Below, piece by piece: positions 733 through 19,056 of a stretch of 21,284 bases of DNA (positions within the stretch are counted from its first letter, which is position 1; every line of letters begins with the position of its first letter). The stretch is from a virus, in the IMG/VR virus record IMGVR_UViG_3300036715_002803, positions 1 through 21,284 of that record, one strand, 5' to 3'. The position numbers and the translations under genes were made by a program. The notes beneath the pieces were generated by a model. That model was not told where the DNA came from and did not search any database. It was given only the letters and a program-made list of their open reading frames with translations.

Positions 733-1043
733 AATTGTACTTGACAGTTGGAGACAACTGGAAAGACTACTTCTCGGTTGGTCTTGACAAGGTGGTTTGT
801 GTTCAAACCTTGTCTGGAGGCACAGTCAAAGAGGGTACTGGTGGTCTGTTTCTCATAACAGACTACTATCTAAAAATCAGCACAATAAGAGGCAACTCCT
901 ACTTGTCTAGCTTTGACAATCCAGGAGATCGTGATGACCTCTTAGCTATGTTGGTAAAAGAGGGGCTGCCAGATTTCCCGGAGGATTTGGCAACCCCTGT
1001 CTATGGTAACTTCAAAAGAAATGGGGGCTTTGTGCAAACATAG
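729..1043 (+). CDS. Hypothetical phage protein (104 aa)
   Basis: Not recognised. The reading frame is open further upstream, but I chose the ATG at 729 because it overlaps the previous stop as ATGA and has AGGAG at 714-718, 10 bases upstream. The protein seems to be mainly beta strand (KLYLTVGDNWKDYFSVGL, KVVCVQTLSGGTV, GGLFLITDYYLKIS) followed by a short helical part (DDLLAMLVKEGLPDFPEDLA). There are no membrane segments. Its last 32 bases overlap the 3' end of the terminase gene, which is read from the other strand, so two converging transcripts meet here. No clear terminator is visible between them. Confidence 0.7.
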   Translation: MKLYLTVGDNWKDYFSVGLDKVVCVQTLSGGTVKEGTGGLFLITDYYLKISTIRGNSYLSSFDNPGDRDDLLAMLVKEGLPDFPEDLATPVYGNFKRNGGFVQT

Positions 1044-2373
1044 GTTTGCTATAGTTGAGTGGCCACAGGTAATCAACAAGATACCTTAGTCCATCACTAA
1101 AGTGTTCTACACCTTGAGTCTTGTCAATGGTAGCAGTTTCAGGTCTGCTTTCCAACCACACTGTTCGTTCGATAGAGTCAATAAACCCTTTGCACCTTGG
1201 GTGGACATACATGTCGATGTCCCCTGCAGCATTCATCATCTTGCGGTTGACTGCTGCAACACTATCAACAAGAGGTGGTGCTTTATCACGAGCAAGGACA
1301 GTAAAACCTGCTTCTCGTAGAATACTAAAGTCTGTGGCTCCAATTGCGGCTGAGGTCTTACGAGCTCGGCCAGAAGGATCTGGATAACAAATAATTCTAG
1401 AACGAGGGTATTTACTACGAATTACATGAGCAAGCTGCTCAGTGTTTGCGGAACCCTTTGACTCGTCTAGAGTGTGAAGTTGGCCACCACGAATAGCATG
1501 AAAGCTAGTGCAGTTCAACATGATGTTAAAGTCAATTGCAACATGCACGTCTTCCCCCTCCATAAAATCTGGAAGGTTTGAATCAACATGAAGTTTTCGA
1601 TCCCAGGTATGAAACAGAGTCAAACCGGACTCTTCAAAGGAGGCTAGATACTCACGAGCAAAACGCAAAGGATCAGCATGTTTCTTTGCTTCCTCAATTT
1701 CTTCGTAGGACAACAAAGGAGAATCTTTATAGGTGTATTTAAAAGTCTTCCAGCGTTGATCTGTGTGCTCGCGCTGTGCGAGATCATAGAAGTAGTCTTT
1801 ACCTTTAGGGGTACTGGGGATCAGGGCTCTACCGGGACTAGCTGCTCCGACCAGAGCTGCTTGCTTAGGGGACCAACGGGTAACAATGCAAGGCTCAATG
1901 ACTGATTCCCAGGCGTTACGAATATCAGAACCACGAACTTCCCAACTTGGCATTTCGTCAGCAACAACAAGGTATTGGCCAGACCCACGCATACGTTCGT
2001 GAGCGTCCGAAGACCAGCAACGAACTTCAGTTCCATTCTTGAAGACAAATTTACCCAGAGCTCTTGAAGAGCTTTTGGCTCGAGACTCAAGCCCGAATTG
2101 GTAAGCAAGCATTGGCCAGTAAATGTCTGTAACCTGAGTATAGGAACCGCACAACAGCGCAATGTTCTTGTTAGGAACAGATACTGGAAGACGTTCTAGC
2201 TCTTCAACAGCGAGAGTCACAGCCGAACCAGACATAAAGGATTTACCGAGACCACGAGACCCAACCACAACAGCAAAACGCATCTTCCAGTCGGGAGAAC
2301 CAACTAGCTGGGGAGTGAATAAATGGCTCACAACCTCAGACTGAGATCGATGGAGATTAATGGTTAAAGTCAT
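1012..2373 (-). CDS. terL: Terminase large subunit (TerL), DNA-packaging ATPase/nuclease
   Basis: This is the motor that pumps DNA into the prohead and cuts the concatemer. At 453 aa it is a normal to short length for the family. The ATPase domain has a Walker A motif GSRGLGKS at residues 38-45 and a Walker B YLVVADEM with D139 and E140. The RNase H-like nuclease domain follows, with acidic residues at D281 (VAIDFN) and D332 (CYPDPSG) and a late HFSDGLRYL motif, as expected for the metal-binding triad. I kept the ATG at 2373 because homology-like sequence begins at residue 7 (LHRSQSEVV). There is no good ribosome site, and the start overlaps by 14 bases the start of a gene read the other way. 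The gene is leftward, downstream of five small leftward genes. Confidence 0.95.
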   Translation of the reverse strand: MTLTINLHRSQSEVVSHLFTPQLVGSPDWKMRFAVVVGSRGLGKSFMSGSAVTLAVEELERLPVSVPNKNIALLCGSYTQVTDIYWPMLAYQFGLESRAKSSSRALGKFVFKNGTEVRCWSSDAHERMRGSGQYLVVADEMPSWEVRGSDIRNAWESVIEPCIVTRWSPKQAALVGAASPGRALIPSTPKGKDYFYDLAQREHTDQRWKTFKYTYKDSPLLSYEEIEEAKKHADPLRFAREYLASFEESGLTLFHTWDRKLHVDSNLPDFMEGEDVHVAIDFNIMLNCTSFHAIRGGQLHTLDESKGSANTEQLAHVIRSKYPRSRIICYPDPSGRARKTSAAIGATDFSILREAGFTVLARDKAPPLVDSVAAVNRKMMNAAGDIDMYVHPRCKGFIDSIERTVWLESRPETATIDKTQGVEHFSDGLRYLVDYLWPLNYSKPMFAQSPHFF

Positions 2374-2731
2374 AAATGTTTTTACCGAAATAGATCTTGC
2401 AAAGAAACTAAAGGAAAAGTTTCCTCATATTAAATATCACTACCATCGTCGTGTAGTGCGCTTGATCTTTGCTACAATAATTGAAGGTCTAGAGGCAGGT
2501 TGGCCTGTAGACCTGGGGACACAGCTAGGTAAGTTTGTTGTTCAAGAGATAACAACTACCTTCGGCAACTTAAAGAAAGGTCACGGAAACCACAGCAGAA
2601 AAACTAAACGAGTTCAGTTCAGACCGAGTTCAAGCTTCAAAGAAAGGTATTCCTATGTTCCTCCTCACGATCCTGTGTTTGATTGCGGCAATCAACCTGT
2701 CAGCGCTGTGCCTGACGAGCATACTGATTGA
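2360..2731 (+). CDS. HU/IHF-like histone-family DNA-binding protein
   Basis: The 123-aa protein follows the HU/IHF fold pattern: a helical N-terminus (residues 9-46), the turn and strands GLEAGWPVDLGTQLGKF (43-59), a basic arm region (72-85), and VQFRPSSSFKERY (85-97), which matches the conserved 'V-x-F-x-P-s-x-x-F/L-K' ending of HU proteins. A tail of about 26 residues is extra. HU proteins bend and wrap DNA; a phage copy might assist packaging, replication or transcription control. GGAG at 2352-2355 lies 4 bases before the ATG. The gene sits antisense between two leftward blocks, and its start overlaps the terL start by 14 bases, so its ribosome site lies inside terL. The assignment rests on motif pattern alone. 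Confidence 0.72.
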   Translation: MVKVINVFTEIDLAKKLKEKFPHIKYHYHRRVVRLIFATIIEGLEAGWPVDLGTQLGKFVVQEITTTFGNLKKGHGNHSRKTKRVQFRPSSSFKERYSYVPPHDPVFDCGNQPVSAVPDEHTD

Positions 2732-2873
2732 TGACAAAGAGATGTCCGCGTTGATCAAGTTGCGTAACTGCTTGCTTGCAATCTTTTTCGGATTACCGAT
2801 TGGTATTATTGCTTCTTTTGCAGTAGGAATTGAATCCGTGCAACAATCACGTCGCCACCCGCCAAAGTCATAA
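2655..2873 (+). CDS. Possible small two-helix membrane protein
   Basis: A 72-aa frame with two strong hydrophobic stretches, about residues 2-24 (FLLTILCLIAAINLSALCL) and 42-60 (LAIFFGLPIGIIASFAVGI), separated by a charged loop (DDKEMS...KLR) and ending in a basic tail (QQSRRHPPKS). AAAGG at 2643-2647 is 7 bases before the ATG. This architecture is seen in class II holins, and lysis genes often lie near terL in T7-like phages, but no sequence signature proves it. It overlaps the end of the HU-like gene by 77 bases and, on the other strand, a 56-aa gene by 68 bases. One of these overlapping frames could therefore be spurious. Confidence 0.5.
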   Translation: MFLLTILCLIAAINLSALCLTSILIDDKEMSALIKLRNCLLAIFFGLPIGIIASFAVGIESVQQSRRHPPKS

Positions 2874-2976
2874 GCTCCTTGTAAAGGGCTGCGTAGGGGT
2901 CATTCTTTGCAATAACCACTTCGCCAGCGTCAGCTTTGTTCAGTGCAATTGCGTCGTCGGAGAGTTCTTCAGCCAT
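2806..2976 (-). CDS. Small hypothetical protein (56 aa), last of leftward operon
   Basis: A short leftward frame starting MAEELSDDAIALNKADAGEV, acidic at the N-terminus and with a helical, basic end (ARIQFLLQKKQ). I do not recognise it. Support for its being real comes from a strong ribosome site, AAGGAAA, 7-8 bases before the ATG, and from an 8-base overlap with the stop of the preceding leftward gene (ATGGCTGA), the typical geometry of coupled translation in this window. It overlaps the end of the possible rightward membrane protein at 2655-2873. The 430 bases between its stop and the terL start carry only rightward genes. Confidence 0.6.
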   Translation of the reverse strand: MAEELSDDAIALNKADAGEVVIAKNDPYAALYKELMTLAGGDVIVARIQFLLQKKQ

Positions 2977-3226
2977 TATCTTGTTTCCTTGTGATGAGTA
3001 GTTTCAATTTGATTACACCTGGAGTCTCTTCATTAGACCCAGCAAGCAAATAGTTGATTGGCCCCTGCTCATGTTCTTCAATGAACTTCTTAAGTTCGGG
3101 CCAGTCATAGTGATTAAATACCCGGTAAGCCAGGTTGTTTGCTTGTTCAGGAGTCAAGTCACGACCCCAAGCAATTCGATCTTCCTTAGTACGGGGAGAA
3201 AACCAGTGGATCTGTAGTTCTGTCAA
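2969..3226 (-). CDS. Hypothetical phage protein (85 aa)
   Basis: Not recognised. It contains a helical stretch LTPEQANNLAYRVFNHYDWPELKKF (described in parts: LTPEQANNLAYRVF at residues 24-37 and WPELKKFIEEHE at 42-53), followed by a strand-rich end (GVIKLKLLITRK). It starts with TTG at 3224-3226, overlapping the stop of the previous leftward gene (ATTGA), with an AAGG about 8 bases upstream. No cysteines, membrane helices or catalytic motifs are visible. It belongs to the five-gene leftward operon that begins at 4109. Confidence 0.65.
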   Translation of the reverse strand: MTELQIHWFSPRTKEDRIAWGRDLTPEQANNLAYRVFNHYDWPELKKFIEEHEQGPINYLLAGSNEETPGVIKLKLLITRKQDNG

Positions 3227-3480
3227 TGGAGCACCTTCAATTCTAATTCTGAAAAGTTATTTGCGTCTTCGTCATCACCAATAAAGATGGCAACAGCTTC
3301 TAGGTAGAAGCCCTTAGGGTAAAGCTTTAGCCCAAACTTTTTAACCTCGGATGGTACACGGCCTTGTTCAGACATCTCAAGAAAGATTTGGTTGTCTCGA
3401 TCTGCATTGTGAAGCTGCAATAGAAACAGCCTACATTCGTTCAAAGTCTGGTCAGGTGATCTCATTGCGAGTTGAATCAT
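3223..3480 (-). CDS. Hypothetical phage protein (85 aa; start uncertain)
   Basis: Not recognised. An N-terminal helical part (SPDQTLNECRLFLLQLHNAD) is followed by a strand-rich part (KFGLKLYPKGFYLEAVAIF) and an acidic segment (GDDEDANNFSELELK). I chose the ATG at 3480, which overlaps the end of the upstream gene by 29 bases; an in-frame GTG at 3537 would add 19 residues. Neither has a convincing ribosome site, so translation probably depends on the ribosome finishing the upstream gene. It is the third gene of the leftward operon. The boundaries of the C-terminus are certain, the start is not. Confidence 0.55.
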   Translation of the reverse strand: MIQLAMRSPDQTLNECRLFLLQLHNADRDNQIFLEMSEQGRVPSEVKKFGLKLYPKGFYLEAVAIFIGDDEDANNFSELELKVLH

Positions 3481-3931
3481 GGGAGAGAATAATCCTAATA
3501 GGTTCTGCTTGATCTGTAGATTCTTGGCTGACAGCACCAGCTTCTCGATAACGATATTTCAGCAGAGCTGCTGCAATACGCTCTTGAATTGTAATAAGAT
3601 TATTGATAACGGTAGCGCGTGGTTGAGCTGCAGCCAACTCTTTCTTCAAGAGTTTTTTGTACTCATCTAACTGGCAAACCAGTTCATCAATAGGATCAAA
3701 CCCAATGTCAATCAATTTGACAGGTCCTTCAATGTTATTAGAAGGTGGAGGGCTAGCAATAGCTCTTAGAGCCTCTAGTGCTTTCTTATTCAATTTGTAT
3801 CGCTCCGGTGGTGGTCTCCATGTCTGTGTGTAGGGGTCATAACCTGCCATATAGGCATCTAGATTCTTACCAACTGGACTTCCTCTTGTTTTTTGGTGAG
3901 AGAAATCAGTCTTAGACTTATACAGGGTCAT
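3452..3931 (-). CDS. Hypothetical protein (159 aa), possible small terminase candidate
   Basis: A proline-rich N-terminal half (YDPYTQTWRPPPERYKLN, IASPPPSNNIEGPV) leads into a long helical segment at about residues 78-130 (DPIDELVCQLDEYKKLLKK, VINNLITIQERIAAALLKYR) that looks like a coiled-coil or oligomerisation region. It lies upstream of terL on the same strand and has a size and helical content compatible with a small terminase or an internal/scaffold-like protein, but I see no diagnostic DNA-binding motif. The ATG at 3931 overlaps the preceding gene by 14 bases and has no good ribosome site, again suggesting coupled translation. The terminase link is inference from position only. Confidence 0.6.
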   Translation of the reverse strand: MTLYKSKTDFSHQKTRGSPVGKNLDAYMAGYDPYTQTWRPPPERYKLNKKALEALRAIASPPPSNNIEGPVKLIDIGFDPIDELVCQLDEYKKLLKKELAAAQPRATVINNLITIQERIAAALLKYRYREAGAVSQESTDQAEPIRIILSHDSTRNEIT

Positions 3932-4109
3932 GATTGAGAGTATAGAGAATTAGGTTGGGTTTAAAGACTACATTAAAGGCCTCAGACTGGCGGGTAGCTA
4001 GCTCTCCAAGGGCAGTAATCCGAAGGTTATCAGAGCCAGGAGTTGTGGTCAACTCAACAATAGCAGGAGAACCTGTGTAAAGGGTGTTGAAGTAGTCAGA
4101 GTAGTTCAT
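3918..4109 (-). CDS. Small hypothetical protein (63 aa), first gene of leftward operon
   Basis: Not recognised. The sequence is strand-rich (AIVELTTTPGSDNLRITALG, EAFNVVFKPNLILYTL) with no membrane segment. The ATG at 4107-4109 follows GGAG about 5 bases upstream, one of the better ribosome sites of the leftward block. It is the first gene after the minus-strand copy of the repeated promoter motif (revcomp of 4139-4155), with a leader of roughly 30 bases. All following leftward genes overlap one another, so this promoter probably serves the whole set down to 2806 and possibly terL. Confidence 0.65.
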   Translation of the reverse strand: MNYSDYFNTLYTGSPAIVELTTTPGSDNLRITALGELATRQSEAFNVVFKPNLILYTLNHDPV

Positions 4110-4132: not shown

Positions 4133-4155
4133 TTTCTTCTTTATAGCTAAGAGGT
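4133..4155 (-). promoter_or_regulatory. Phage RNA polymerase promoter candidate P1 (leftward)
   Basis: Read on the minus strand this is ACC-TCT-TAGCTATAAAG-AAGAAA, sharing ACC-N3-TAGCTATAAAG exactly with sites at 4851 and 8645. It faces the leftward operon starting at 4109. It resembles T7/SP6-class promoters (CTATA followed by an AG-rich start). The plus-strand gene at 4161 has its ribosome site (AGAGG, 4150-4154) inside the upstream half of this motif. Confidence 0.7.
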
Positions 4156-4160
4156 GTGAA

Positions 4161-4547
4161 ATGCTGTTTTTCGTCTATGGGTCTTTAAAGGCAGGACAAC
4201 GTTTGTCTCCGGCGATGCGAAGATTGGAGTTTGTTGCTGAGGCAAGAACTACAAAACCTGCTGTCCTGTTTCAAGGAGACTCTTGGCCCTGGGTTTCCCT
4301 GTCCGATTTATCCAGTGGTGTTCTTCCTGTTCATGGGGAACTCTACAGAGGAGACGAAAGTTGCAAAGACTTGCTCGACTATGTGGAGGGTTACCCCACG
4401 TTGTTCTATCGGAGTAAGATCAGTGTGACAGTGTTTGAAGAAGCTGAAGTAACTGCCTGGATTTATCACCGGGAGTGTAATCACCCTGCTGTGGCAGATA
4501 AGGTGGTTAAAAATGAGGTATTGGGGTACTGCTGGTCCCCGAAGTAG
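4161..4547 (+). CDS. Gamma-glutamylcyclotransferase-like (AIG2/GGCT fold) protein
   Basis: The 128-aa protein has the hallmarks of the GGCT/AIG2 family: the VYGSLK substrate-binding turn at residues 5-10, GELY at 59-62, and LLDYVEGYP at 71-79, where E76 matches the catalytic glutamate. Family members act on gamma-glutamyl groups (glutathione turnover, gamma-glutamylamines); what the phage protein acts on is not known. The frame is open further upstream, but I chose the ATG at 4161 because AGAGGTG at 4150-4156 precedes it and the family motif begins at residue 4. It is the first rightward gene and is divergent from the leftward operon. No forward copy of the phage promoter motif is upstream, so it may rely on a host promoter. 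Confidence 0.85.
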   Translation: MLFFVYGSLKAGQRLSPAMRRLEFVAEARTTKPAVLFQGDSWPWVSLSDLSSGVLPVHGELYRGDESCKDLLDYVEGYPTLFYRSKISVTVFEEAEVTAWIYHRECNHPAVADKVVKNEVLGYCWSPK

Positions 4548-4568
4548 AAAGGAAATAAAAATAGACCT

Positions 4569-4613
4569 GATAGCAATGCTTTTGGCCGTTGGCCTTGTGA
4601 AGCTCTTGCTATC
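4569..4613. repeat. Inverted repeat in the 4548-4665 gap
   Basis: GATAGCAA (4569-4576) and TTGCTATC (4606-4613) are exact reverse complements, enclosing GGCC-GTT-GGCC, which can form a small inner hairpin. There is no T-run, so it is not an ordinary terminator. In the transcript it could be a structured processing site between the genes at 4161 and 4666. Confidence 0.5.
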
Positions 4614-4656
4614 TTCCAAAGATCGTGTGAATAAGGCTCGTAAGAGAACTCCTTAA
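4576..4656 (+). CDS. Possible 26-aa microprotein
   Basis: A tiny frame reading MLLAVGLVKLLLSSKDRVNK followed by ARKRTP: a hydrophobic stretch and then a basic tail, as in very small membrane peptides. There is no ribosome site before the ATG; AAAGGA at 4548-4553 would better suit a start around 4561, where only a non-standard ATA exists. It lies within an inverted repeat in the 118-base gap between the genes at 4161 and 4666. It is listed only because the composition is suggestive. It may be chance. Confidence 0.22.
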   Translation: MLLAVGLVKLLLSSKDRVNKARKRTP

Positions 4657-4665
4657 GGATAAACG

Positions 4666-4848
4666 ATGAAAGATAACAACAACAAAAAAGACTTGTCCTT
4701 TTCTTCATTGATTAGAGAAATTGACGCTAAATGGGGGCACACTTATGAAAAAGTTTCCGTAGAACAAGAGTTGGAAGAATTTACTTCCGTAGAGTCTGGT
4801 GTTCTTGTCATTGACCAAACAGACATAGTTTCAAGATTGAAATGGTGA
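4666..4848 (+). CDS. Small hypothetical early protein (60 aa)
   Basis: Not recognised. It begins with an Asn/Lys-rich stretch (MKDNNNKKD) and is acidic in the middle (VSVEQELEEFTSVESGVLVI). AAGGA at 4655-4659 is correctly placed before the ATG. It is the gene immediately upstream of the promoter motif and RNA polymerase gene. In T7-like phages this position holds small proteins that modify the host early in infection, but nothing in the sequence shows such a role. There are no cysteines or membrane segments. Confidence 0.65.
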   Translation: MKDNNNKKDLSFSSLIREIDAKWGHTYEKVSVEQELEEFTSVESGVLVIDQTDIVSRLKW

Positions 4849-4850
4849 TT

Positions 4851-4870
4851 ACCACTTAGCTATAAAGCAG
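4851..4870 (+). promoter_or_regulatory. Phage RNA polymerase promoter candidate P2
   Basis: ACC-ACT-TAGCTATAAAG-CAG, identical to P1 and P3 at the ACC and the 11-base core. It lies 27-43 bases upstream of the RNA polymerase ATG, which suggests that the polymerase would transcribe its own gene. A host sigma-70 reading is also possible here (TTGAAA at 4837-4842, 18-base spacer, TATAAA at 4861-4866), but that -35 box is not shared by the other two copies. Confidence 0.72.
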
Positions 4871-4893
4871 ACCAGAAAATTTTAAGGAGACTA

Positions 4894-7074
4894 ATGTCAG
4901 ATAACTCTATTTTAACAAAACTCGTCGTTGACTTCGACGATAGAAAATCAATTTTAAGAGCTGACCGAAATCAATACACCCACTTCTTGAAGGAAGAAGA
5001 TGGAAGAAAAATAATCCTGTACTCCTTCGCCCATGTAATCAAGGGAGTTGAACGCAAGGCAACTCTTGTAGATTTGTCAGTCACTCTAGGTCGTAGAGTA
5101 AGACAAAAACTAAGGTTGAAGAGAAATTCTGTAGCCGCTTGCCAAGTTGGATGGTTTATTCTTGTCTCTTTCTTTGAGGTAGGTCTACTCCACTACACAC
5201 TGGAAAAAGCAGATAAGAAAGGTCGCAAGTCTAAATACCTGGCCTATATAATCACCGTCAAGGATCGAAAAAGTTTGTTTGATCTTTGGGATGAGTTGAA
5301 CAAGGAAGAGCAGATTGACTTGTTTCCAACAGGCCAACCTCCTGGCGACTGGACTTCACCAACACACGACCTTGGGTATGTCATTATCAAGAAATCTAGC
5401 CCCGAGATTACCTCAAAGCTAGTACCAGAAACAGCACCACTAATCTATGAGATGTTGAATAAACTAGGGCGTCAGCCTTGGATCATCAACACTCCCATGT
5501 TGGAGGTGCTAGAATATTTTATGGATCAGCCAGCGGAAGGAAACCCTCTAAAACATAAGACTGAACGTGATCCTGAACGTCGAGCTAGTTTGACTATTGA
5601 AATTGAAGCCATTGTGAGGTTGGCACGTCGAAATTCAGAAAGGCTGTTTTACCACCTTTACAATCTAGATTTTCGAGGGAGAATCTACCCAAATTCTGCA
5701 TATTTGCACGAGCAATCGTCTGACAATGCAAAGAGTCTGTTGCTGTTTGCCAAGGGGGTTCCCCTGGGAGAAACAGGGTTGTACTGGTTGTTGCTCCATG
5801 GTGCGAACACCTGGGGTAATGACAAGGTCTCTCTTGATGACCGAGTCGAGTTTTGTCTAACAAACTATGACACTTTTGTGGAGTATGCACGAAATCCCTA
5901 TGAAGTCAGAGGTTGGATGGAGGCTGATAAGCCTTTTAGCTTTCTAGCTTTTTGTCATGAGTTAATGTATTTGCAAGATTGGGTGTCAGCTGGAAACCTC
6001 CAGAATGAGTTTGTTTCTAACCTAGTGTTGTATCTCGATGGTAGCTGTAATGGCACACAGCATCTCGTAGCAATGTCTAAAGATGAAGAGCTCGCACCTT
6101 ACGTAAACCTGGTCCCTGAAGAGGTGCCAGGAGACTTGTACAGTTATGTTGCGGACAAAGTCTGGGCTAGGCTCGACCGTCTTGCAGCTGCTGTACCCCC
6201 TGAGATTGCTTGTCAGCTAGACGATGTTTTGAATCGTCTTGAGACACTGCAAGAAGCCTATGACACAGCTCCTGCAGGATCTGAACGCAAGGCGATTGCC
6301 TACACTGAGGTCCAAACTTGGCGTAATAACAATCGTAAGCTGCGTGAGATGCTCTACCCGATCTATTGGGCGCGCATCACAGATCGGAAGCTACGGCGTA
6401 AGTTAGTTAAGCGGGGAGTAATGACTTCCAGCTATGGTGCGGTTCCTTTCGGAATGGGACAACAAGTGTGGGATGACACCCGAGGGCTCAGCCCTTATCT
6501 TGCTAGTCAAGAAAAGTTGTGGTCATCGATGCTTGGATTGGAATTGTATCAGACTTGCCGCGAAGACCTTGTTGGTCCAGGTAAGTTACTGGCTCTTTTT
6601 GAGTCTATCGCCGATGCTTACAATGAGAAGCATGAATACATGGCTTGGTTTAGCCCTGTAACAGGGTTTCCGGTAGTTCAGCACTATCGCCAACCTTTGT
6701 CAACCCGAACTTGGCTGTCTTATGGAGAAAATCGCTTTCATGTTGTTGTTGAAAATTGGGAGGAAGCTACTCTTGACAAGGACTCACAACGTCTTGGTGC
6801 GTCTCCAAACATTGTGCACAGTCTTGATGCTACCCACATGACCATGGTTATTTGTGCTGCGTACTTTGATGTGGCAGCAATACACGACTCTTGGGGCTGT
6901 GTGGCTGGAAACATGGAGAAACTTTTTGTCTTGATCCGAGAAAAATTTGTAGAGTTGTATGAGAAAGACCCTTTGAAGCAGATTCTGTCGCAGCTAGATG
7001 CTGAGACAATGATGCCAAAAAGAGGTAGCCTACAGTTGGAAGGAGTGCTTGAGAGTGACTACTGCTTCTGCTGA
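4894..7074 (+). CDS. T7-type single-subunit DNA-directed RNA polymerase
   Basis: This enzyme transcribes phage genes from its own promoters without sigma factor. Catalytic motifs are clear: motif A YLDGSCNGTQH with D382 (T7 D537), motif B KRGVMTSSYG with K506 and Y514 (T7 K631, Y639), and motif C NIVHSLDATHM with D645 (T7 D812). The C-terminus ends DYCFC, comparable to the essential aromatic 'foot' (DFAFA) of T7. At 726 aa it is well below T7's 883 aa; nearly all the difference (about 155 residues) lies before motif A, so the N-terminal domain is reduced. AAGGAG at 4884-4889 precedes the ATG, and promoter motif P2 is just upstream. The last 20 bases overlap the next gene if its GTG start is right. 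Confidence 0.97.
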   Translation: MSDNSILTKLVVDFDDRKSILRADRNQYTHFLKEEDGRKIILYSFAHVIKGVERKATLVDLSVTLGRRVRQKLRLKRNSVAACQVGWFILVSFFEVGLLHYTLEKADKKGRKSKYLAYIITVKDRKSLFDLWDELNKEEQIDLFPTGQPPGDWTSPTHDLGYVIIKKSSPEITSKLVPETAPLIYEMLNKLGRQPWIINTPMLEVLEYFMDQPAEGNPLKHKTERDPERRASLTIEIEAIVRLARRNSERLFYHLYNLDFRGRIYPNSAYLHEQSSDNAKSLLLFAKGVPLGETGLYWLLLHGANTWGNDKVSLDDRVEFCLTNYDTFVEYARNPYEVRGWMEADKPFSFLAFCHELMYLQDWVSAGNLQNEFVSNLVLYLDGSCNGTQHLVAMSKDEELAPYVNLVPEEVPGDLYSYVADKVWARLDRLAAAVPPEIACQLDDVLNRLETLQEAYDTAPAGSERKAIAYTEVQTWRNNNRKLREMLYPIYWARITDRKLRRKLVKRGVMTSSYGAVPFGMGQQVWDDTRGLSPYLASQEKLWSSMLGLELYQTCREDLVGPGKLLALFESIADAYNEKHEYMAWFSPVTGFPVVQHYRQPLSTRTWLSYGENRFHVVVENWEEATLDKDSQRLGASPNIVHSLDATHMTMVICAAYFDVAAIHDSWGCVAGNMEKLFVLIREKFVELYEKDPLKQILSQLDAETMMPKRGSLQLEGVLESDYCFC

Positions 7075-7324
7075 AATCACTATCTATGGCTACATTGAAG
7101 TAGATGAGTCGGATAATTTTCATCAAGAGTTCTTTACTACAAAGAGGTTGGAAGACTATTTTTCCTATGTAGAGAATGTTCCTACCCTCACTCCAAGTAG
7201 TATCTTGACTTTTCGATCTCAGGATGATCTCGACATGGAGTGTCTGCTTGTTCTTGACTGGGACTATTATTTTAATCCAGAGTCCAATCACGACGACTAC
7301 TGGGGAGAGTTGGTGCTGAAATGA
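7055..7324 (+). CDS. Acidic hypothetical protein (89 aa)
   Basis: Not recognised. The protein is acidic and aromatic (EVDESDNFHQEFF, LDWDYYFNPESNHDDYWGEL), a composition also seen in small phage inhibitors that mimic DNA or bind host enzymes, but no family is evident. I prefer the GTG at 7055, 9 bases after AGGAG (7041-7045); an in-frame TTG at 7049 is only 3 bases from it. The gene overlaps the end of the RNA polymerase gene and its stop overlaps the next start as ATGA, so it is translated as part of the same transcript. Confidence 0.62.
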   Translation: MTTASAEITIYGYIEVDESDNFHQEFFTTKRLEDYFSYVENVPTLTPSSILTFRSQDDLDMECLLVLDWDYYFNPESNHDDYWGELVLK

Positions 7325-7509
7325 CTGAGAAGAACTGGGGTTGTATAAACTGTTCAGGTTGGGACTGTGCTTGTGACAAACCCAAGACTGTTGAGTTGAC
7401 TCCTGAACGATACCAAGAGTTGCTTGACGCTGAGGATAAACTTATTAAACTTGAGGCAGGAGGTGTTGACAACTGGGATGGGTATGAGTTTTGTTTTGAG
7501 GAAGAATGA
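7321..7509 (+). CDS. Small Cys-rich hypothetical protein (62 aa)
   Basis: The N-terminus has CINCSGWDCAC (residues 8-18), a tight cysteine cluster that could bind a metal ion. The rest, LTPERYQELLDAEDKLIKLE followed by AGGVDNWDGYEF, resembles a short helix-plus-'GVDNW-GY' module found in many small phage proteins of unknown function. It starts with ATG overlapping the previous stop (ATGA) and ends overlapping the next start. It is part of a run of small genes behind the RNA polymerase. No enzymatic motif is visible. Confidence 0.65.
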   Translation: MTEKNWGCINCSGWDCACDKPKTVELTPERYQELLDAEDKLIKLEAGGVDNWDGYEFCFEEE

Positions 7510-7724
7510 TGAGAAGACCACTTGTTTGGGTTGCTCCACGAGAACACAGTGCTTGTTGGTGCTGCCCAGGCCACGACAAGTTTCCCACAGAGACCTACCG
7601 TAATAGACGGTCCAAACACGCTCGGGCTCGCGATCGACAGATTGAAAACCAACTTGTAAGAACAATACAGAAAAGGACACTGAAACATGCGGTTGACCAA
7701 GGCAATTATTACGGCAATTACTAA
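7506..7724 (+). CDS. Small basic hypothetical protein (72 aa)
   Basis: Not recognised. It is strongly basic (RNRRSKHARARDRQIENQLV, IQKRTLKHAV) with a CWCC cluster at residues 17-20, and may bind nucleic acid or metal. Two adjacent ATG codons (7506 and 7509) can serve as start; the first overlaps the previous stop. The last 38 bases overlap the next gene, a larger overlap than elsewhere in this block, so the C-terminal end or even the gene might be over-called. There is no membrane segment. Confidence 0.55.
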   Translation: MMRRPLVWVAPREHSACWCCPGHDKFPTETYRNRRSKHARARDRQIENQLVRTIQKRTLKHAVDQGNYYGNY

Positions 7725-8118
7725 AGTAAAACAAGAAGAAAAAGTAAACAATGTTCTTACGTTGGACTTCCAGGCTGCCCTCAACAAGGCAGTAGGTTTA
7801 TCTTGGAGTGACTTCAATACAATTCGAAAAATTGAAGATTCAATGTTAGAGGGTAGAATTCTACAATACTACAAAGGTTTTTATGGCTTTTACAATTCAA
7901 ATAACCAATATGCTACCTTGGTTTTTGATGGTGTTGTCTATGTTCCTTTTAACATAAGTACAAACACTATTCGATCTGTTTGCGGTAGCTTTATCACAAA
8001 AGAGGTTGTTAAGGACTGGGCTACAGTGTTGTCAGCCTTCACAAACGTTGAAGCAGCCATTGCAGTTTATCCTGAGTTGAAGCCTCGGTTTGTGGCCTTG
8101 TTTGGGGAGGTGTTCTGA
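7687..8118 (+). CDS. Hypothetical phage protein (143 aa)
   Basis: Not recognised. It starts with a Lys-rich helix (MRLTKAIITAITKVKQEEK), has an aromatic strand-rich centre (QYYKGFYGFYNSNNQYATLV, VVYVPFNISTNTI) and a helical C-terminus (WATVLSAFTNVEAAIAVYPEL). No catalytic pattern or membrane helix stands out. AAAAGGA at about 7672-7678 precedes the ATG by 8-9 bases. The stop overlaps the next start as TGATG. It is the longest gene in the accessory block between the RNA polymerase and promoter P3. Confidence 0.68.
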   Translation: MRLTKAIITAITKVKQEEKVNNVLTLDFQAALNKAVGLSWSDFNTIRKIEDSMLEGRILQYYKGFYGFYNSNNQYATLVFDGVVYVPFNISTNTIRSVCGSFITKEVVKDWATVLSAFTNVEAAIAVYPELKPRFVALFGEVF

Positions 8119-8312
8119 TGGCTAAGTTTATGGTGGTGTGCAAGTTAGAAACAACTGTTGTTGTTGAAGCAGGTAGCCCTAGCGAAGCTATCGACCGTTG
8201 GGGGCAATTACAAGAAGAAGGTCTTCTGACTCTTGACCATTATGTGATAGATCAAGATGAACCTTATACAATTCAAGTAGATAATCAGACAAAGGAGACT
8301 ATTAGTGTCTAA
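8118..8312 (+). CDS. Small hypothetical protein (64 aa)
   Basis: Not recognised. Its pattern is strand, helix, strand: KFMVVCKLETTVVVEA, then SPSEAIDRWGQLQEEGLL, then HYVIDQDEPYTIQV. That layout is common in small proteins in which a beta hairpin packs on one helix, but it is not diagnostic. The ATG overlaps the previous stop (TGATG) and the 3' end overlaps the next gene by 8 bases, consistent with coupled translation. There are no cysteine clusters and no membrane segment. Confidence 0.62.
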   Translation: MAKFMVVCKLETTVVVEAGSPSEAIDRWGQLQEEGLLTLDHYVIDQDEPYTIQVDNQTKETISV

Positions 8313-8586
8313 ATGGGCTAATGAACCTTACGTGTCGAGTCCTTTTGTAGTATATGGCTACGTGGCAGATGGCGGTGATGGGTCTTATAGTATTTTCTGG
8401 CTTGATGGGAAAATAGAAGATCACACAGATGAAGATTATATTGAAGGAGTGTCTGACGGAGACGGACTAAGCTATCGATCAAAACTGACTTTTGATTCCA
8501 AAGAGGCAGCTATAAAAGCTGGTATTCGATACGAGCCAGTCCTGAACTGGCTGCAAGAGCATGGAATTAAAACAAGGGAAGTTTGA
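8305..8586 (+). CDS. Acidic hypothetical protein (93 aa)
   Basis: Not recognised. It is rich in Gly, Asp and aromatic residues (VYGYVADGGDGSYSIFWLDG, EDHTDEDYIEGVSDGDGLSY), suggesting a small acidic beta protein, with a helical C-terminal part (SKEAAIKAGIRYEPVLNWLQ). The start is GTG at 8305, 7 bases after a strong ribosome site AAAGGAG (8291-8297) that lies within the end of the preceding gene. It is the last gene before the 88-base gap holding promoter motif P3. It is similar in character to the acidic protein at 7055 but not obviously homologous. Confidence 0.66.
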   Translation: MSKWANEPYVSSPFVVYGYVADGGDGSYSIFWLDGKIEDHTDEDYIEGVSDGDGLSYRSKLTFDSKEAAIKAGIRYEPVLNWLQEHGIKTREV

Positions 8587-8644
8587 TGTCACTAACTTTT
8601 CTGCAGCATACCTACATTGCGCGCTGAAATTGAATTTTGAAAGC

Positions 8645-8663
8645 ACCAGGTAGCTATAAAGAG
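8645..8663 (+). promoter_or_regulatory. Phage RNA polymerase promoter candidate P3
   Basis: ACC-AGG-TAGCTATAAAG-AG, with the same fixed spacing as P1 and P2. It lies in the only clear gap (8587-8674) of this region, directly before the gene at 8675 and the SSB/replication genes. The bases right after the core, GAGGAA (8661-8666), also form the ribosome site for the ATG at 8675, so the leader would be only about 15 bases long. Confidence 0.72.
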
Positions 8664-8674
8664 GAACAAAATCA

Positions 8675-8956
8675 ATGAGCACTATTGAACTCCATGACTA
8701 CAATCCGACCTCTAAATCTGGGTCCAAAGGAATCTTTTTGTCTGTAGGGCCTGAGCGGCGGCGCAAGGTTTATCGCATTACGTCAAAGACTGGCCGTGCG
8801 CTGTTTCTCAAGTATGCGTCGCGCTGGAACACAATGCAAGTTCATAACTACCATCATCTAGGTGTTGGTCTTCGAATTACCAAAAATTTGAAATGCTCTT
8901 ACCTAGGCAAAGTCATTTCTACCCGCAAAGCCTTCAAGCTTATTGCTAACAGCTGA
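8675..8956 (+). CDS. Basic hypothetical protein (93 aa), first gene after P3
   Basis: Not recognised. The protein is strongly basic, with clusters such as PERRRKVYRITSKTGRALFL and VISTRKAFKLI, and is probably beta-rich; nucleic-acid binding is plausible but unproven. Its ribosome site GAGGAA (8661-8666) merges with promoter motif P3. The stop is followed by a small hairpin (8957-8974), so this gene could be transcribed partly apart from the SSB gene behind it. Position next to a strong promoter suggests it is made in large amounts. Confidence 0.68.
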   Translation: MSTIELHDYNPTSKSGSKGIFLSVGPERRRKVYRITSKTGRALFLKYASRWNTMQVHNYHHLGVGLRITKNLKCSYLGKVISTRKAFKLIANS

Positions 8957-8985
8957 GGACTGGTTTTACAGTCCAACTTTATTTT
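8957..8985 (+). terminator. Weak hairpin, possible attenuator/terminator
   Basis: GGACTG (8957-8962) pairs with CAGTCC (8969-8974) around a GTTTTA loop, followed by the T-rich AACTTTATTTT. The 6-bp stem is short and the T-run is broken, so termination would be partial at best. It separates the gene at 8675 from the SSB gene. Confidence 0.4.
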
Positions 8986-9011
8986 AACGAAACATATAGG
9001 AAAACAAATTA

Positions 9012-9515
9012 ATGCCGATTATTCAAGACGTGTCTGTGTTTTGGGTCAAACTGAATCCCGCTAAGCCGGAACGTTACCAAGGAAAAGGTCCTGCAAAGAA
9101 CACTGTTCAAATCCGAGTGTATGAACGTGCCAAAAAAGATCAACTGGAAAAAGAGTACGGATTTAAATTCACTCCCAAGGAAGATGCTACGACTGGTAAA
9201 CTCTATTATCAGACCTCAATCTCCGCGTTTACCTATGGGACTGATGCCGACAAAAACGAAGACACTAACAACCAAAACAAGCCTGTCGAGGTTCGGACTG
9301 CCGATCTTCGCCCTCTTGACCCTGACACAGTAGGTAATGGTTCGATTGCAAACATTCGCTTCCGTATGAAGGACGATAAGTCTTCGCGTACCATTACCGG
9401 TATGCAAGTAACGAAGCTCGTTGTCTACAAGGGTCGTGAAGAAGAAGAATTCACTCGTTCTGACAACTTTGAAATCATTGGTGATGCTGGTGACAGCACA
9501 GGGGAAGAGTATTGA
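9012..9515 (+). CDS. Single-stranded DNA-binding protein, T7 gp2.5-like
   Basis: The 167-aa protein is probably the phage SSB that coats unwound DNA and contacts the polymerase and helicase. It shows the pattern of phage OB-fold SSBs: a strand-rich body with NGSIANIRFRMKDDKS and ITGMQVTKLVVYKG near residues 110-145, where gp2.5-type proteins have 'G-GS-x-xN/KV...' and 'L-x-x-V-x-L-x'. The C-terminus is acidic and ends with an aromatic residue (GDAGDSTGEEY), as in gp2.5, whose acidic tail and final Phe bind partner proteins. AGGAAAA precedes the ATG. It sits directly upstream of the nucleotide and replication genes. The identity rests on pattern and context, not on alignment. Confidence 0.78.
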   Translation: MPIIQDVSVFWVKLNPAKPERYQGKGPAKNTVQIRVYERAKKDQLEKEYGFKFTPKEDATTGKLYYQTSISAFTYGTDADKNEDTNNQNKPVEVRTADLRPLDPDTVGNGSIANIRFRMKDDKSSRTITGMQVTKLVVYKGREEEEFTRSDNFEIIGDAGDSTGEEY

Positions 9516-9928
9516 ACTCAGTTTACCTTGCAGGCCCCATGGAAGGGGTTGATAAGGTAGTAGCAAACGCCTGGCGGGTAACTGTCAGGCGCGAGCTTGC
9601 CTTATCTGGAATAAACACCTTGGATCCTGCTAGACGACAAAGATACCACGACCAACCACCGTCTCTAAACTTGTCCAGAAAGATAGTTTCCCTTGACCTG
9701 CACGACATAAGTTCTTGTCGGCTAGTCTTGGCAAATCTATCCGAGCTGGGGGGAGGCCGTGCTTGGGGCACTGTTATGGAAGTTGCCTTGGCGGCTTACC
9801 ACTTTCGAAAACCCGTAATTGTTCTTGCAGAAAAGGACTTCAAACATCCCTTCATTGAAACTTTCGCTACTGAGCTGGTCTATGATCTAAATGAAGCAAT
9901 AGCTTCCTGCAAAGGTTACTTTCAATGA
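9512..9928 (+). CDS. Nucleoside 2-deoxyribosyltransferase-like protein
   Basis: The 138-aa protein begins with VYLAGPM (residues 4-10), the family's nucleotide-binding N-terminal motif, has D62/D65 in VSLDLHDISSCRLVLANL, and GTVMEVALA with E90 as the likely nucleophilic glutamate; 'PVIVLAE' follows as in the fold. Such enzymes move deoxyribose between bases or hydrolyse deoxynucleotides (the DUF4406 and DRTase groups look alike), so the exact reaction is open. It starts with TTG overlapping the SSB stop (ATTGA), and its own stop overlaps the next ATG. It fits a role in recycling or purging nucleotide pools beside the phage DNA polymerase and RNR. Confidence 0.8.
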   Translation: MNSVYLAGPMEGVDKVVANAWRVTVRRELALSGINTLDPARRQRYHDQPPSLNLSRKIVSLDLHDISSCRLVLANLSELGGGRAWGTVMEVALAAYHFRKPVIVLAEKDFKHPFIETFATELVYDLNEAIASCKGYFQ

Positions 9929-10182
9929 GCCAAAATCACGTCAGATATGAGCTGGTGGATACACAGCTTGACGGGCTACTGATGAAGACAAAGTACCACC
10001 ACAAACTTGAAAAACACTACGAAAAGATTATTCGTAGAGCTCCGCAGCTGGAAGGCTATATCTGTCTTCGTGTTATTCTTGTGCGATCAAATCTTCTCTG
10101 GTTCACACCAAGATTGGAAGATTTTCAAAAATTCAGACAGAACTTTGTGACAGCGTATATTGCAACAGAAGAAGTGGAATGA
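9925..10182 (+). CDS. Hypothetical phage protein (85 aa)
   Basis: Not recognised. It is a basic protein with a helical stretch (KTKYHHKLEKHYEKIIRRAP) and a strand (EGYICLRVILVRSNLLWF), then FTPRLEDFQKFRQNFVTAYI. There is no obvious catalytic motif or membrane helix. The start overlaps the previous stop (ATGA) and the stop overlaps the next start, placing it firmly within the SSB-to-polymerase operon. A role in nucleotide or DNA metabolism would be guilt by association only. Confidence 0.66.
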   Translation: MSQNHVRYELVDTQLDGLLMKTKYHHKLEKHYEKIIRRAPQLEGYICLRVILVRSNLLWFTPRLEDFQKFRQNFVTAYIATEEVE

Positions 10183-10460
10183 CAATGGCAGATCCAATTA
10201 ATCCTGACTACTATAAAGGAGTTCTTGTAATTCCTAAGCATCGCCTAGCAGAGTTCACCACACCCAGTGGTGACATCTCTCTGGAATACATGGATCTGAT
10301 GGAGTTTGTCATGACTCCAGACCAGTTTGAAGGTCACTTGAAGGGGCAAGTATGGAAGTACTTGCTCCGTCTTGGAGGCAAAGATGACCCAGTTCAAGAA
10401 GTTAAAAAATCTAGCTGGTACTTGACTCGTCTTGTGAAGTTTATTACAGGGAAAAAGTAA
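10179..10460 (+). CDS. DUF3310-family protein (T7 gp1.7 C-terminal-type)
   Basis: The 93-aa protein matches the DUF3310 pattern: NPDYYKG at residues 8-14, DLMEFVMTPDQFEGHLKGQV (39-58), and WKYLLRLGGKDDPVQEVKKS with the closing SSWYLTRLVKFI. In T7 the related protein gp1.7 is a nucleotide kinase for dGMP/dTMP; many phages carry a stand-alone copy like this one beside nucleotide genes. The usual 'H-Y' in the N-terminal motif is Y-Y here. A second ATG at 10185 is also possible as start. It lies between genes for nucleotide-type enzymes and shares the overlapping TAATG junction with the next gene. Confidence 0.82.
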   Translation: MTMADPINPDYYKGVLVIPKHRLAEFTTPSGDISLEYMDLMEFVMTPDQFEGHLKGQVWKYLLRLGGKDDPVQEVKKSSWYLTRLVKFITGKK

Positions 10461-11275
10461 TGAAAATTCCTGCTGAGCGATTGTATTCAGTTGCAGAAAA
10501 AATCTTTTCGGAAACACCTGTGCAGATCGGGGAAGAAAAAAAGGTGAAAATGTTTAACCGAGGAGCTTATCTTGCAGGAGGGGCTATTGTAAACACTCTT
10601 CTCGGTAGTGAGCCCAACGATTATGACATCTTCTTTCGTGACAAAGACTTGGCATTGGACTTTGCTAGAGCAGCGGTAAGGGGGCTGCCAGTGACTGCTT
10701 CGGTTGTGCAGGTTAATGACAAGGTTGATCGGGTTGTACTTGAAGCAAACTTCAGCACTATTAATCGTATATTGAAGGCTGACAAGAAAAATGAATTGTC
10801 TTTTGTATCAAATACTGCCTTGAGCTACAAGAATAAGCTTCAAGTCATCACGGCCTTCATCGGAGAGCCCGAAGATGTCTTTAAGTTCTTTGACTATGAG
10901 CACTGCAAGGTCTATATGGACTTTAACATTGTCGAAGAAAAGTTTGTGGTTGGGGATGAACAAACTATCTCTGCAATTCTCACCAAGGATCTGATTTATA
11001 CAGGCGGGTCTAAGTACATCCTGTCTGCACTCATGCGATCTCAAAAGTTTGCAAAGAGAGGATGGAGCATGAAGCTTAGCTCTGCTCTTCGTTTGTCAAA
11101 AGGTCTTGGTGAGATTGACTTGACAAACAAAAAAGAGTTGAAAGAACAGTTGATTAGCTTTTACGGGTTGTCTGATGCAGCAGATGACTTGTTGAACCAA
11201 GCTACTCGACTAGATGATTTTTCGTCAATTGATTTTGACAAATTGATTACAGTATTGGAAGGCGTTTACAAATGA
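10460..11275 (+). CDS. Nucleotidyltransferase-fold protein (pol-beta/CCA head domain-like)
   Basis: The 271-aa protein has the signature of the poly(A) polymerase/tRNA nucleotidyltransferase head domain: YLAGGAIVNTLLGS (residues 37-50), with the GG turn, followed by NDYDIFF, where D54 and D56 are the metal-binding aspartates. A later aspartate in FDYEHCKVYMDFN could complete the triad. Family enzymes add nucleotides to RNA, proteins or small molecules; the target here is unknown. The C-terminal half is helical. The ATG overlaps the previous stop (TAATG) and the stop overlaps the next start. It may act on tRNA, on a host toxin or protein, or on nucleotides; none of these can be distinguished from sequence. 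Confidence 0.75.
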   Translation: MKIPAERLYSVAEKIFSETPVQIGEEKKVKMFNRGAYLAGGAIVNTLLGSEPNDYDIFFRDKDLALDFARAAVRGLPVTASVVQVNDKVDRVVLEANFSTINRILKADKKNELSFVSNTALSYKNKLQVITAFIGEPEDVFKFFDYEHCKVYMDFNIVEEKFVVGDEQTISAILTKDLIYTGGSKYILSALMRSQKFAKRGWSMKLSSALRLSKGLGEIDLTNKKELKEQLISFYGLSDAADDLLNQATRLDDFSSIDFDKLITVLEGVYK

Positions 11276-11463
11276 TTGAGACTGTTGTTGTTGTGGAAAA
11301 AGGAACGAAGTACGAGTCCGGAGTTGGTTACACCGGTGCTGTTTTGTCTCGGTTGGGATTCCCCGAAGGACCCTATACTCCCAAGATTGCAAAGATTTTT
11401 GTGAGCCAGGCACGCTCTGTTGACTCTACCTTGAAGTTTGAGATCAAGCCTTACCGAGTCTAA
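11272..11463 (+). CDS. Small hypothetical protein (63 aa)
   Basis: Not recognised. It is strand-rich, starting MIETVVVVEKGTKYESGVGY and ending STLKFEIKPYRV; probably a small beta protein. The ATG overlaps the stop of the nucleotidyltransferase-fold gene (ATGA). It is the last gene before a 52-base gap with a strong hairpin upstream of the DNA polymerase. There are no cysteines, membrane helices or catalytic residues to note. Confidence 0.62.
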   Translation: MIETVVVVEKGTKYESGVGYTGAVLSRLGFPEGPYTPKIAKIFVSQARSVDSTLKFEIKPYRV

Positions 11464-11470
11464 ACAACTC

Positions 11471-11496
11471 TTGGCCAGTGGGAGACTGCTGGCCAA
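11471..11496 (+). promoter_or_regulatory. Hairpin in the DNA polymerase leader
   Basis: TTGGCCAG (11471-11478) and CTGGCCAA (11489-11496) form a perfect 8-bp stem around a 10-base loop, 19 bases before the TTG start of the DNA polymerase gene. No T-run follows, so it is not a standard terminator. It could control translation or processing of the polymerase message. Confidence 0.6.
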
Positions 11497-11515
11497 CCAA
11501 ATAGAAAGGTAATAA

Positions 11516-13381
11516 TTGAAAAGACGAGTAGTATATGATATTGAGACTAACGGGCTGCAATCAACAGTAGACACACTGTGGATTGTGGTCGCCTACGACA
11601 TTGATGAAAAAAAGTATTACACCTTTACTGACTGTGAAGACAACGACACTCGACAACCTTTGTCAGACTTGATCCCTTTCCTTGACGATTGCAGGGTCTT
11701 GATTGCTCACAATCAGATGATGTATGACATTCCTGTTCTGCGCAAACTGATTGGTTGGATTCCTTCTCCTGATGTTGTGTTCTATGACACAATGATCTTG
11801 TCACAAGTTCTAAACTATAAACGATTTGGCTTTGGCCACAGCCTGGCTAAGTGGGGTGAGTTTTTAAACTATGCCAAGGTAGAGCATGAAGAGTGGAATC
11901 GTTATTCTCCCGAAATGAGAAAACGCTGCCAAGTCGACGTAGAGCTTAACGTAAAAGTTTGGGAGCACTTGTCAGCTGAACTGCAATCACGAAAGAACAA
12001 AGAAACTCTTAAACTAGGCATCAGAGGCGAGCATTACGCCTCTTATTTTACTGGACGAGCAAACGCGGGTGGCTGGCCTTTTGACGTTGAAGCTGCTAAG
12101 CTGCTGCTGACTCGTATTGGTCATGAGCTGTTGCTGATCAAGGAAGTAGTCGAGCCTCAGTTGAAGCTCAAGATTGCTCAACTTGATAATAATCCTGAGT
12201 TCAAGTCTCCTGCTTGGATCAAGAATGGAGACTACGCAGCAAGAACTGCTGGTTGGTTTGAAATTTCCCCTAGGCTTGGCCAGGAAGAAGATCGCCCTAT
12301 CTGGGGTGACTACTGCCGAGTTCAAGCAGTAAAACCAGACATTGGTTCGATGGAATCTGTGAAGGGCTTGCTTTTTAGCCTTGGTTGGGTTCCTGATGAG
12401 TACAATTATGTAAAAAACGCTGCTGGAAAACTTATCCAGTCTACTCCGAAATTGACAGAGTCTAGCCTAGAGCCTCTTGGTAAAATCGGAGAAATGATTG
12501 GTGATTTTTATTCTCTTCGCGCAAGACACTCCGTTCTTCAAACCTGGATTGATTCTGTTGTTGACGGTAGGTTGCATGGAGACTGTTTTGTCATAGGAAC
12601 ACCCACTGGTAGAGCACGACACGAAATCATTGCCAACATTCCGTCAGCTGACGCTAAGTATGGCCCTGAGATTAGAGCCTTGTTCATTGCTCCACCTGGT
12701 TATGTTGTTGTTGGTGTTGACTCAAAAGGGAATCAGAACAGAGCTCTAGCTCATTACCTAAACAACAAAGATTACACCGAGGCTGTTTGCACCGGTGATA
12801 TCCATGAATACAACAAGGGAATTCTAGAAACAATTCTAGGCAATATGGGAGCGGCAGGTCGTAAAAAAGCCAAGGCCTTCTTCTATGCTCTTATCTTTGC
12901 TGGAGGTGCTGGAAAGCTTGCACTTATCACTACAGGTAAAAGAGACCCTGTTCGTGGTAGTGTAATCAAGGAGTCTTTTCTCAAGGGAATTCCAGGTCTT
13001 AAAAAGCTGGTTAGCTCTCTTGAAGACATGTTTACAGTTACCCAAGAGAAAACTGGAAAGGGGTACATCCTTGCTCTTGACGGTCGACCTATCTTCATGG
13101 AAGCAGCTCGGCTAGCGCTGAACTACTTGCTTCAATCTTTTGAGAAGATTACAGTTTCTTTGTCCATTCAACAAGTGGTTGAAGAGCTGGACCGTGGTAG
13201 GTTTGATTGGCAACCGCTGATTTTCTACCATGACGAAATTCAGTTCTATGTTAAAGAGGATCAAGCCGAAGCTGCAAAGGAAATTGGCTTGAAGGCGTTC
13301 AAGGAAGCACCTAATAAACTCGGAGTCTCTATCATGGAAGGCTCTGCAGCAATAGGTAAAAACTGGTTCGAAACTCACTGA
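11516..13381 (+). CDS. Family A DNA polymerase with 3'-5' exonuclease (T7 gp5-like)
   Basis: The replicative polymerase, 621 aa (T7 gp5 is 704). The proofreading domain has ExoI DIETNG (D8, E10), ExoII HNQMMYD (N66, D71) and ExoIII SPEMRKRCQVD (D141). Polymerase motif A is VDSKGNQNRALAH with D402, motif B RKKAKAFFYALIFAG with R449, K453 and Y457, and motif C YHDEIQ with D573 and E574. Y457 matches the Tyr526 position of T7 polymerase. Two positions are unusual: Q407 replaces the steric-gate Glu, and R137 replaces the ExoIII Tyr. Start is TTG at 11516 behind GAAAGG; the DIETNG motif begins at residue 8, as expected. A hairpin lies in the leader. Confidence 0.96.
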   Translation: MKRRVVYDIETNGLQSTVDTLWIVVAYDIDEKKYYTFTDCEDNDTRQPLSDLIPFLDDCRVLIAHNQMMYDIPVLRKLIGWIPSPDVVFYDTMILSQVLNYKRFGFGHSLAKWGEFLNYAKVEHEEWNRYSPEMRKRCQVDVELNVKVWEHLSAELQSRKNKETLKLGIRGEHYASYFTGRANAGGWPFDVEAAKLLLTRIGHELLLIKEVVEPQLKLKIAQLDNNPEFKSPAWIKNGDYAARTAGWFEISPRLGQEEDRPIWGDYCRVQAVKPDIGSMESVKGLLFSLGWVPDEYNYVKNAAGKLIQSTPKLTESSLEPLGKIGEMIGDFYSLRARHSVLQTWIDSVVDGRLHGDCFVIGTPTGRARHEIIANIPSADAKYGPEIRALFIAPPGYVVVGVDSKGNQNRALAHYLNNKDYTEAVCTGDIHEYNKGILETILGNMGAAGRKKAKAFFYALIFAGGAGKLALITTGKRDPVRGSVIKESFLKGIPGLKKLVSSLEDMFTVTQEKTGKGYILALDGRPIFMEAARLALNYLLQSFEKITVSLSIQQVVEELDRGRFDWQPLIFYHDEIQFYVKEDQAEAAKEIGLKAFKEAPNKLGVSIMEGSAAIGKNWFETH

Positions 13382-13388
13382 GGTAAAA

Positions 13389-14508: not shown

Positions 14509-14526
14509 TGAACAACAAAGAGGTAA

Positions 14527-15000: not shown

Positions 15001-15100
15001 GTGGCTACAGTCGAGGTTCAAGACTAAAACCCCAGCATTGAAGTCATTGATGAAAGAGCTACTTGATGAAGAACTAGAACTATTGGAAATCAAGGAATAA
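14957..15100 (+). CDS. Small helical protein (47 aa)
   Basis: A short frame, MKKQLNLLNLQVTIEWLQSR and onward, ending in the Leu/Glu-rich ELLDEELELLEIKE, so it is amphipathic and probably helical or coiled coil. It is too short for routine gene calling, but GAGGAA at 14943-14948 lies 8 bases before the ATG and the frame fills the whole space between the GIY-YIG gene and the gene at 15105. It overlaps the end of the GIY-YIG gene in another frame. Function unknown. Confidence 0.58.
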   Translation: MKKQLNLLNLQVTIEWLQSRFKTKTPALKSLMKELLDEELELLEIKE

Positions 15101-15104
15101 AAGT

Positions 15105-15732: not shown

Positions 15733-15741
15733 GGAGAGTCA

Positions 15742-18690: not shown

Positions 18691-18692
18691 TC

Positions 18693-19043: not shown

Positions 19044-19056
19044 CAAAAGGATTACT

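Follow-up and report, generated by a model that had tools for sequence, protein, structure and literature searches.

A conserved 23-bp element as the probable cognate promoter of a T7-type RNA polymerase in an uncultivated phage lineage

Is a short motif that recurs three times, on both strands, in a phage fragment the cognate promoter of the RNA polymerase encoded beside it? The question is raised by IMG/VR record IMGVR_UViG_3300036715_002803, whose whole length of 21,284 bases (hereafter, the window) represents part of the genome of an uncultivated tailed phage, with genes for a T7-type RNA polymerase, a T7-like DNA polymerase, an exonuclease, a primase/helicase and a ribonucleotide reductase, together with a terminase gene directed leftward. 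The three sites are very probably promoters of the T7-type RNA polymerase encoded at 4894-7074, each of them a copy of a 23-bp element with the consensus CACCTCTTAGCTATAAA/GMAGAA, in which the slash precedes the G at +1. This assignment had been put forward by a sequence-only reading of the same DNA, and it is supported by the conservation of the element, its synteny, its restriction to one lineage, the presence of copies upstream of capsid genes and the T7-type fold of the enzyme.

The 11-mer TAGCTATAAAG occurs in the window exactly three times, at 4149-4139 (minus strand), 4857-4867 (plus) and 8651-8661 (plus), the same coordinates and strands given by the sequence-only reading, and ACC lies three bases upstream of every core, as had also been claimed. 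The resulting 17-mer, ACC-N3-TAGCTATAAAG (4155-4139, minus; 4851-4867 and 8645-8661, plus), has no further match in the window at up to two mismatches, and a reversed-pattern control found none; the bases downstream read AAGAAA, CAGACC and AGGAAC, as reported. A bare 11-mer in triplicate is commonplace by chance (68 of 100 shuffles contain some 11-mer three times), so that the weight is placed on the ACC, the position of the sites and their conservation. Among shuffles that preserve dinucleotides, 199 of 200 lacked any gapped 14-mer of such shape occurring more than twice, and one held a triple. None of the three copies falls within a called gene, in a window whose non-coding share is only about 7%, and they stand 14-30 nt ahead of genes running in the same direction, namely a 63-aa open reading frame (ORF) at 3918-4109 (minus), the RNA polymerase gene (plus) and a 93-aa ORF at 8675-8956 (plus). 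The claim that each copy is just upstream of a transcription unit holds as to direction and distance (30-46 bp if counted from the ACC), but the SSB label given to the gene at 9012-9515 in the third unit is a presumptive one, with no match in Pfam or PHROG.

Since the window is only a 21.3-kb fragment, the motif was examined in relatives from IMG/VR whose RNA polymerases are about 70% identical; farther relatives show 41-49% identity, and the nearest named RNA polymerases, at 44-45% (44.5% for the closest), belong to the roseophages DSS3_VP1 and DSS3_PM1 (Naomviridae). Megablast of the window DNA against phage records gave no match to any of them. A search with a matrix from the close relatives yields strong sites in the two longest records, six in G005 (73.8 kb) and seven in G004 (46.8 kb), and two to three in each of most shorter fragments. 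These sites score 19-42, and Markov-simulated genomes yield 0-1.8 matches per genome at a score above 10. In an alignment of 24 non-redundant sites from the window lineage, the conserved block comprises exactly 23 bases, -17 to +6; the information content is 0.66 bits at its first position and 0.90 bits at its last, and drops to 0.42 and 0.25 bits just outside. The ACC at -16 to -14 is invariant in all 24 sites, as are C-7, T-4 and A-3, and the core from -7 to -3 is mostly CTATA, with the variants CGTTA and CGCTA. The conserved element is thus longer than the ACC-N3-11-mer originally described.

For each of the three window sites, relatives also show counterparts at the equivalent gene junction. 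Those of promoter 1 are located 34 bp ahead of the same terminase operon in G005 (44287, plus), G004 (32088, plus) and G003 (9374, plus), the three genomes in which the matching operon is homologous to the leftward ORFs of the window, and the end of the G009 contig (20415, plus) carries the same CACCTCTTTGCTATAAAGAAGAAAAGGAG site. The counterparts of promoter 2 lie 42-52 bp ahead of the RNA polymerase gene in G004 (29845, minus) and G003 (6929, minus), and those of promoter 3 between the RNA polymerase gene and the SSB-position gene in G005, G004, G003, G007 and G009. Moreover, a search of 2.9 million viral contigs for the exact 21-mer ACCTCTTAGCTATAAAGMAGA yields 41 stretches, each of which encodes proteins of the window lineage; L013, itself a polymerase relative, is among them. 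Copies upstream of late genes, on which the sequence-only reading had made its case depend, do exist: about 20 of these contigs carry a co-directional 21-mer site that precedes the major capsid gene by roughly 1-2.5 kb, a region that lies outside the window.

By its sequence and its modelled fold, the product of the gene at 4894-7074 is a T7-type enzyme. Its best sequence match in the PDB is T7 RNA polymerase (1aro, E=6e-60), its structural model (mean pLDDT 88.7) reaches a TM-score of 0.78 to the T7 RNA polymerase-promoter complex 1cez, and the catalytic residues D382, K506, Y514 and D665 match D537, K631, Y639 and D812 of T7. The specificity loop forms a beta hairpin at 599-627 of the model, in which R605, W607, R614 and H616 occupy the positions of T7 R746, N748, R756 and Q758. 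These four residues are constant in the close relatives with the same promoter, and lineages whose promoters are different also have a different loop, a correspondence that is an association at the level of lineages and not a proven residue code.

A de novo search of intergenic DNA in four farther lineages recovered a different motif in each. DSS3_VP1 has 16 sites of the form RATAGGKKRCGTTAAA/GAGGGG, every one of them on the coding strand and nine in the non-coding 6% of its genome; G012 has four sites AATTACCTGACGTTAAA/GAACAA, a motif found twice in G011, whose specificity loop is nearly equal to that of G012; G014 has four sites AAATACTGCCGCCTAAT/GA and G017 five sites AAATACTTGACCCTTAT/GA. 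With the seeds tried, no motif was recovered in G018 or G016, where a single weak G014-like match appeared in the latter. All-pairs clustering of 20-mers over whole genomes proved too permissive, and limiting the search to intergenic DNA worked.

The register of the element was addressed with a pooled matrix of the commonly known T7, T3, SP6 and K11 promoter sequences, slid over 31 offsets in each of the five lineages. The same offset (0) was the best of the 31 in all five, and it makes the G of TAAAG the +1 base; single known promoters fitted to the window lineage alone had left the register unsettled. The most likely start is consequently this G, at 4139, 4867 and 8661, and the element would therefore span -17 to +6. 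The start at the A after CTATA, implied by the sequence-only reading, is probably wrong by three bases, and CTATA taken as T7 positions -5 to -1 scores worse in every one of the five lineages. A bridge between lineages is provided by ACGTTAAAG, common to site 39646 of G005, to G012 and to DSS3_VP1.

Some observations weigh against a cognate promoter of this kind. The pooled matrix fits the window lineage poorly in absolute terms, and because its margin over other offsets there is small (-7.1 versus -7.9) the assignment of +1 leans on the bridging lineages. In the window, no promoter match precedes the ribonucleotide reductase beta gene (19057), unlike in four relatives, which carry a near-consensus site about 53 bp ahead of that gene or of its upstream-extended start. 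Furthermore, a one-residue recognition code linking T7 R746 to C-7 was given up as a general rule, since L019 has the arginine yet shows G at -7 in its single site.

A TATAAA that resembles a -10 hexamer, at sites upstream of genes, could point to host sigma-70 promoters, from which the bacterial RNA polymerase would transcribe early genes. This is very unlikely, as the block is made of 23 contiguous bases and not of two boxes, and no conserved -35 hexamer is found at the 16-18 bp from the -10 box that such promoters call for, each position from -45 to -18 holding 0.01-0.42 bits over the 24 aligned sites. The motif also precedes late capsid genes and changes with the lineage of the phage polymerase, and a sigma-70 scan of the window gave no excess (32 matches versus 28 expected). 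Copies that are few, long, nearly invariant and mostly intergenic would also suit an operator or another protein-binding site (for a repressor or activator, or for origin, packaging or recombination functions) that happens to lie before operons. However, the motif is directional and not palindromic, it keeps a promoter-like distance to the downstream gene in the window and faces the capsid genes in relatives, and a single register aligns the motifs of all five lineages with T7-family promoters, all of which makes such a site even less probable than a host promoter. Hardly credible, among these alternatives, is a conserved 5' leader or mRNA-processing signal acting as RNA, with the promoter elsewhere: the purine stretch GMAGAA downstream and one site of G005 and G004 with a conserved leader of about 49 nt would agree with it, but conservation lies mainly upstream of the predicted +1 and ends at about +6 across the aligned sites.

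The cognate promoter being the preferred reading, expression would start with the transcription of the phage polymerase gene by the host RNA polymerase. The phage enzyme would then bind the -17 to -5 half of the element through its N-terminal domain and the specificity-loop hairpin (R605/W607/R614/H616), melt the TAAA at -4 to -1 and initiate at the G. In this way it would drive its own gene, as autoregulation, the replication module and the leftward terminase operon, as well as the capsid module in the parts of the genome outside the window.

The comparison with known systems draws in part on general knowledge of T7. In T7, T3, SP6 and K11, promoters are laid out with recognition at -17 to -5, initiation at -4 to +6 and a CACTA core at -7 to -3, a core termed common but not obligatory (PMC13029058). 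Like the class II/III promoters of T7 and T3, the element of the window lineage is a single 23-bp block from -17 to +6 without -35/-10 boxes, present in a small number of copies that precede operons and the capsid module, with G at +1, T-4, A-3 and C-7, and with TAAA preceding the G as in T3; as in T7, a cognate single-subunit polymerase with matching catalytic residues is encoded in the same genome. Unlike in T7 and T3, the core reads CTATA, the initial bases are GMAGAA instead of GGGAGA, and the AT-rich element at -17 to -13 is replaced by the invariant ACC at -16 to -14. Here the consensus from -17 to -14 is CACC, and the AT fraction of the -17 to -13 element is 0.46, versus 0.81-1.00 in the other four lineages. 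The polymerase has 726 aa versus 883 in T7, and the relatives of the window have long-tail genes in common with DSS3_VP1, a tape-measure homologue among them, in place of a T7 podovirus tail. As the layout is the classical one of T7, met here in another phage family, the case is counted as a further example of a known arrangement; what sets it apart is the invariant ACC that stands where the AT-rich element would be expected. That the polymerase reads this ACC base by base through its N-terminal domain, after a swap with the AT-rich element, which in T7-family promoters is read loosely in the minor groove, is a tentative proposal that we hold to be somewhat improbable. In the openly accessible literature searched, to which the original account of the DSS3 phages does not belong, no paper printing the window promoter sequence was found.

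The closest named phages, DSS3_VP1 and DSS3_PM1, have deoxyuridine DNA and share replication and terminase genes with the window, as well as portal and capsid genes with its relatives, but differ from the window lineage in promoter sequence. Some of the 16 DSS3_VP1 sites share TAGGTGAC (-14 to -7) with the SP6 promoter, and it is mainly the -8 to +1 part, seen in the G005 site above, that the DSS3_VP1 motif has in common with the window lineage. The deaminase of DSS3_VP1 makes dUTP for deoxyuridine DNA (PMC12697855). An enzyme 42% identical to it is encoded in G005 (C1:52691-53089) and G004 (C1:38174-38581), the gene being absent from the window; neither a thymidylate synthase nor a YfbR-like dTMP phosphatase was found in these two genomes.

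These predictions offer new polymerase-promoter pairs for an uncultivated phage branch related to the deoxyuridine-DNA roseophages, and a predicted transcription map of this branch that covers the polymerase's own gene, replication, terminase and capsid. The five lineages, with their differing promoters and specificity loops, form a natural collection from which the recognition code of single-subunit polymerases can be studied and orthogonal polymerase-promoter pairs can be drawn. Sister lineages keep the AT-rich form, so that the switch, if the proposed reading of the ACC is true, could be dissected within one family.

Table 1. Predicted promoters, transcription units and genes of the window.
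Feature	Position	Strand	Remarks
Promoter 1 (predicted)	4134-4156	-	CACCTCTTAGCTATAAA/GAAGAA; predicted +1 at 4139; faces leftward operon including terminase large subunit
Promoter 2 (predicted)	4850-4872	+	TACCACTTAGCTATAAA/GCAGAC; predicted +1 at 4867; RNA polymerase gene 27 nt downstream; autoregulatory position
Promoter 3 (predicted)	8644-8666	+	CACCAGGTAGCTATAAA/GAGGAA; predicted +1 at 8661; faces replication module
Single-subunit (T7-type) RNA polymerase	4894-7074	+	726 aa; phrog_414 E=2e-131, PF00940 E=4.9e-76
Leftward transcription unit	1012-4109	-	ORFs 3918-4109, 3452-3931, 3223-3480, 2969-3226, 2806-2976 and terminase large subunit 1012-2373
Rightward replication module	8675-20043	+	starts at ORF 8675; downstream of promoter 3
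SSB-position gene	9012-9515	+	
DNA polymerase	11516-13381	+	
Exonuclease	13717-14508	+	
Primase/helicase	15742-17427	+	
Ribonucleotide reductase beta	19057-20043	+	

Around promoter 3, the bases from +1 to +6 could double as the ribosome-binding site of ORF 8675, and a terminator-like hairpin followed by a T-rich tail (8957-8974, plus) lies immediately downstream, between that ORF and the SSB-position gene, as a possible attenuator or processing site. A gene of the gamma-glutamyl cyclotransferase type (PF06094; 4161-4547, plus), kept at about 30% identity in relatives, stands between promoters 1 and 2, and a small HU/IHF-like DNA-binding protein (PF00216; 2360-2731, plus) is encoded divergently from the terminase gene. 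The replication module includes a SegE-type GIY-YIG endonuclease (PF19835; 14527-15000, plus), with relatives about 70% identical.

In the two longest relatives, one promoter copy (G005 C1:54242-54310, plus, in L051; G004 C1:40520-40585, plus, in L048) is followed by the conserved leader of about 49 nt, the whole amounting to 66 bp with 91% identity (GAGAGTTCTTTGGGGGT...GGTTCAGTTAGAAGA). This copy points across about 4 kb of small genes on the opposite strand toward the structural module, and might give rise to a small RNA or to an antisense late transcript. Finally, a 50-nt stretch that differs from the promoter motif (G005 C1:58075-58124, L051; G004 C1:44040-44089, L048) is 94% identical between these two phages, otherwise about 78% alike, and lies immediately ahead of the PhoH-like gene, the first of the structural module.

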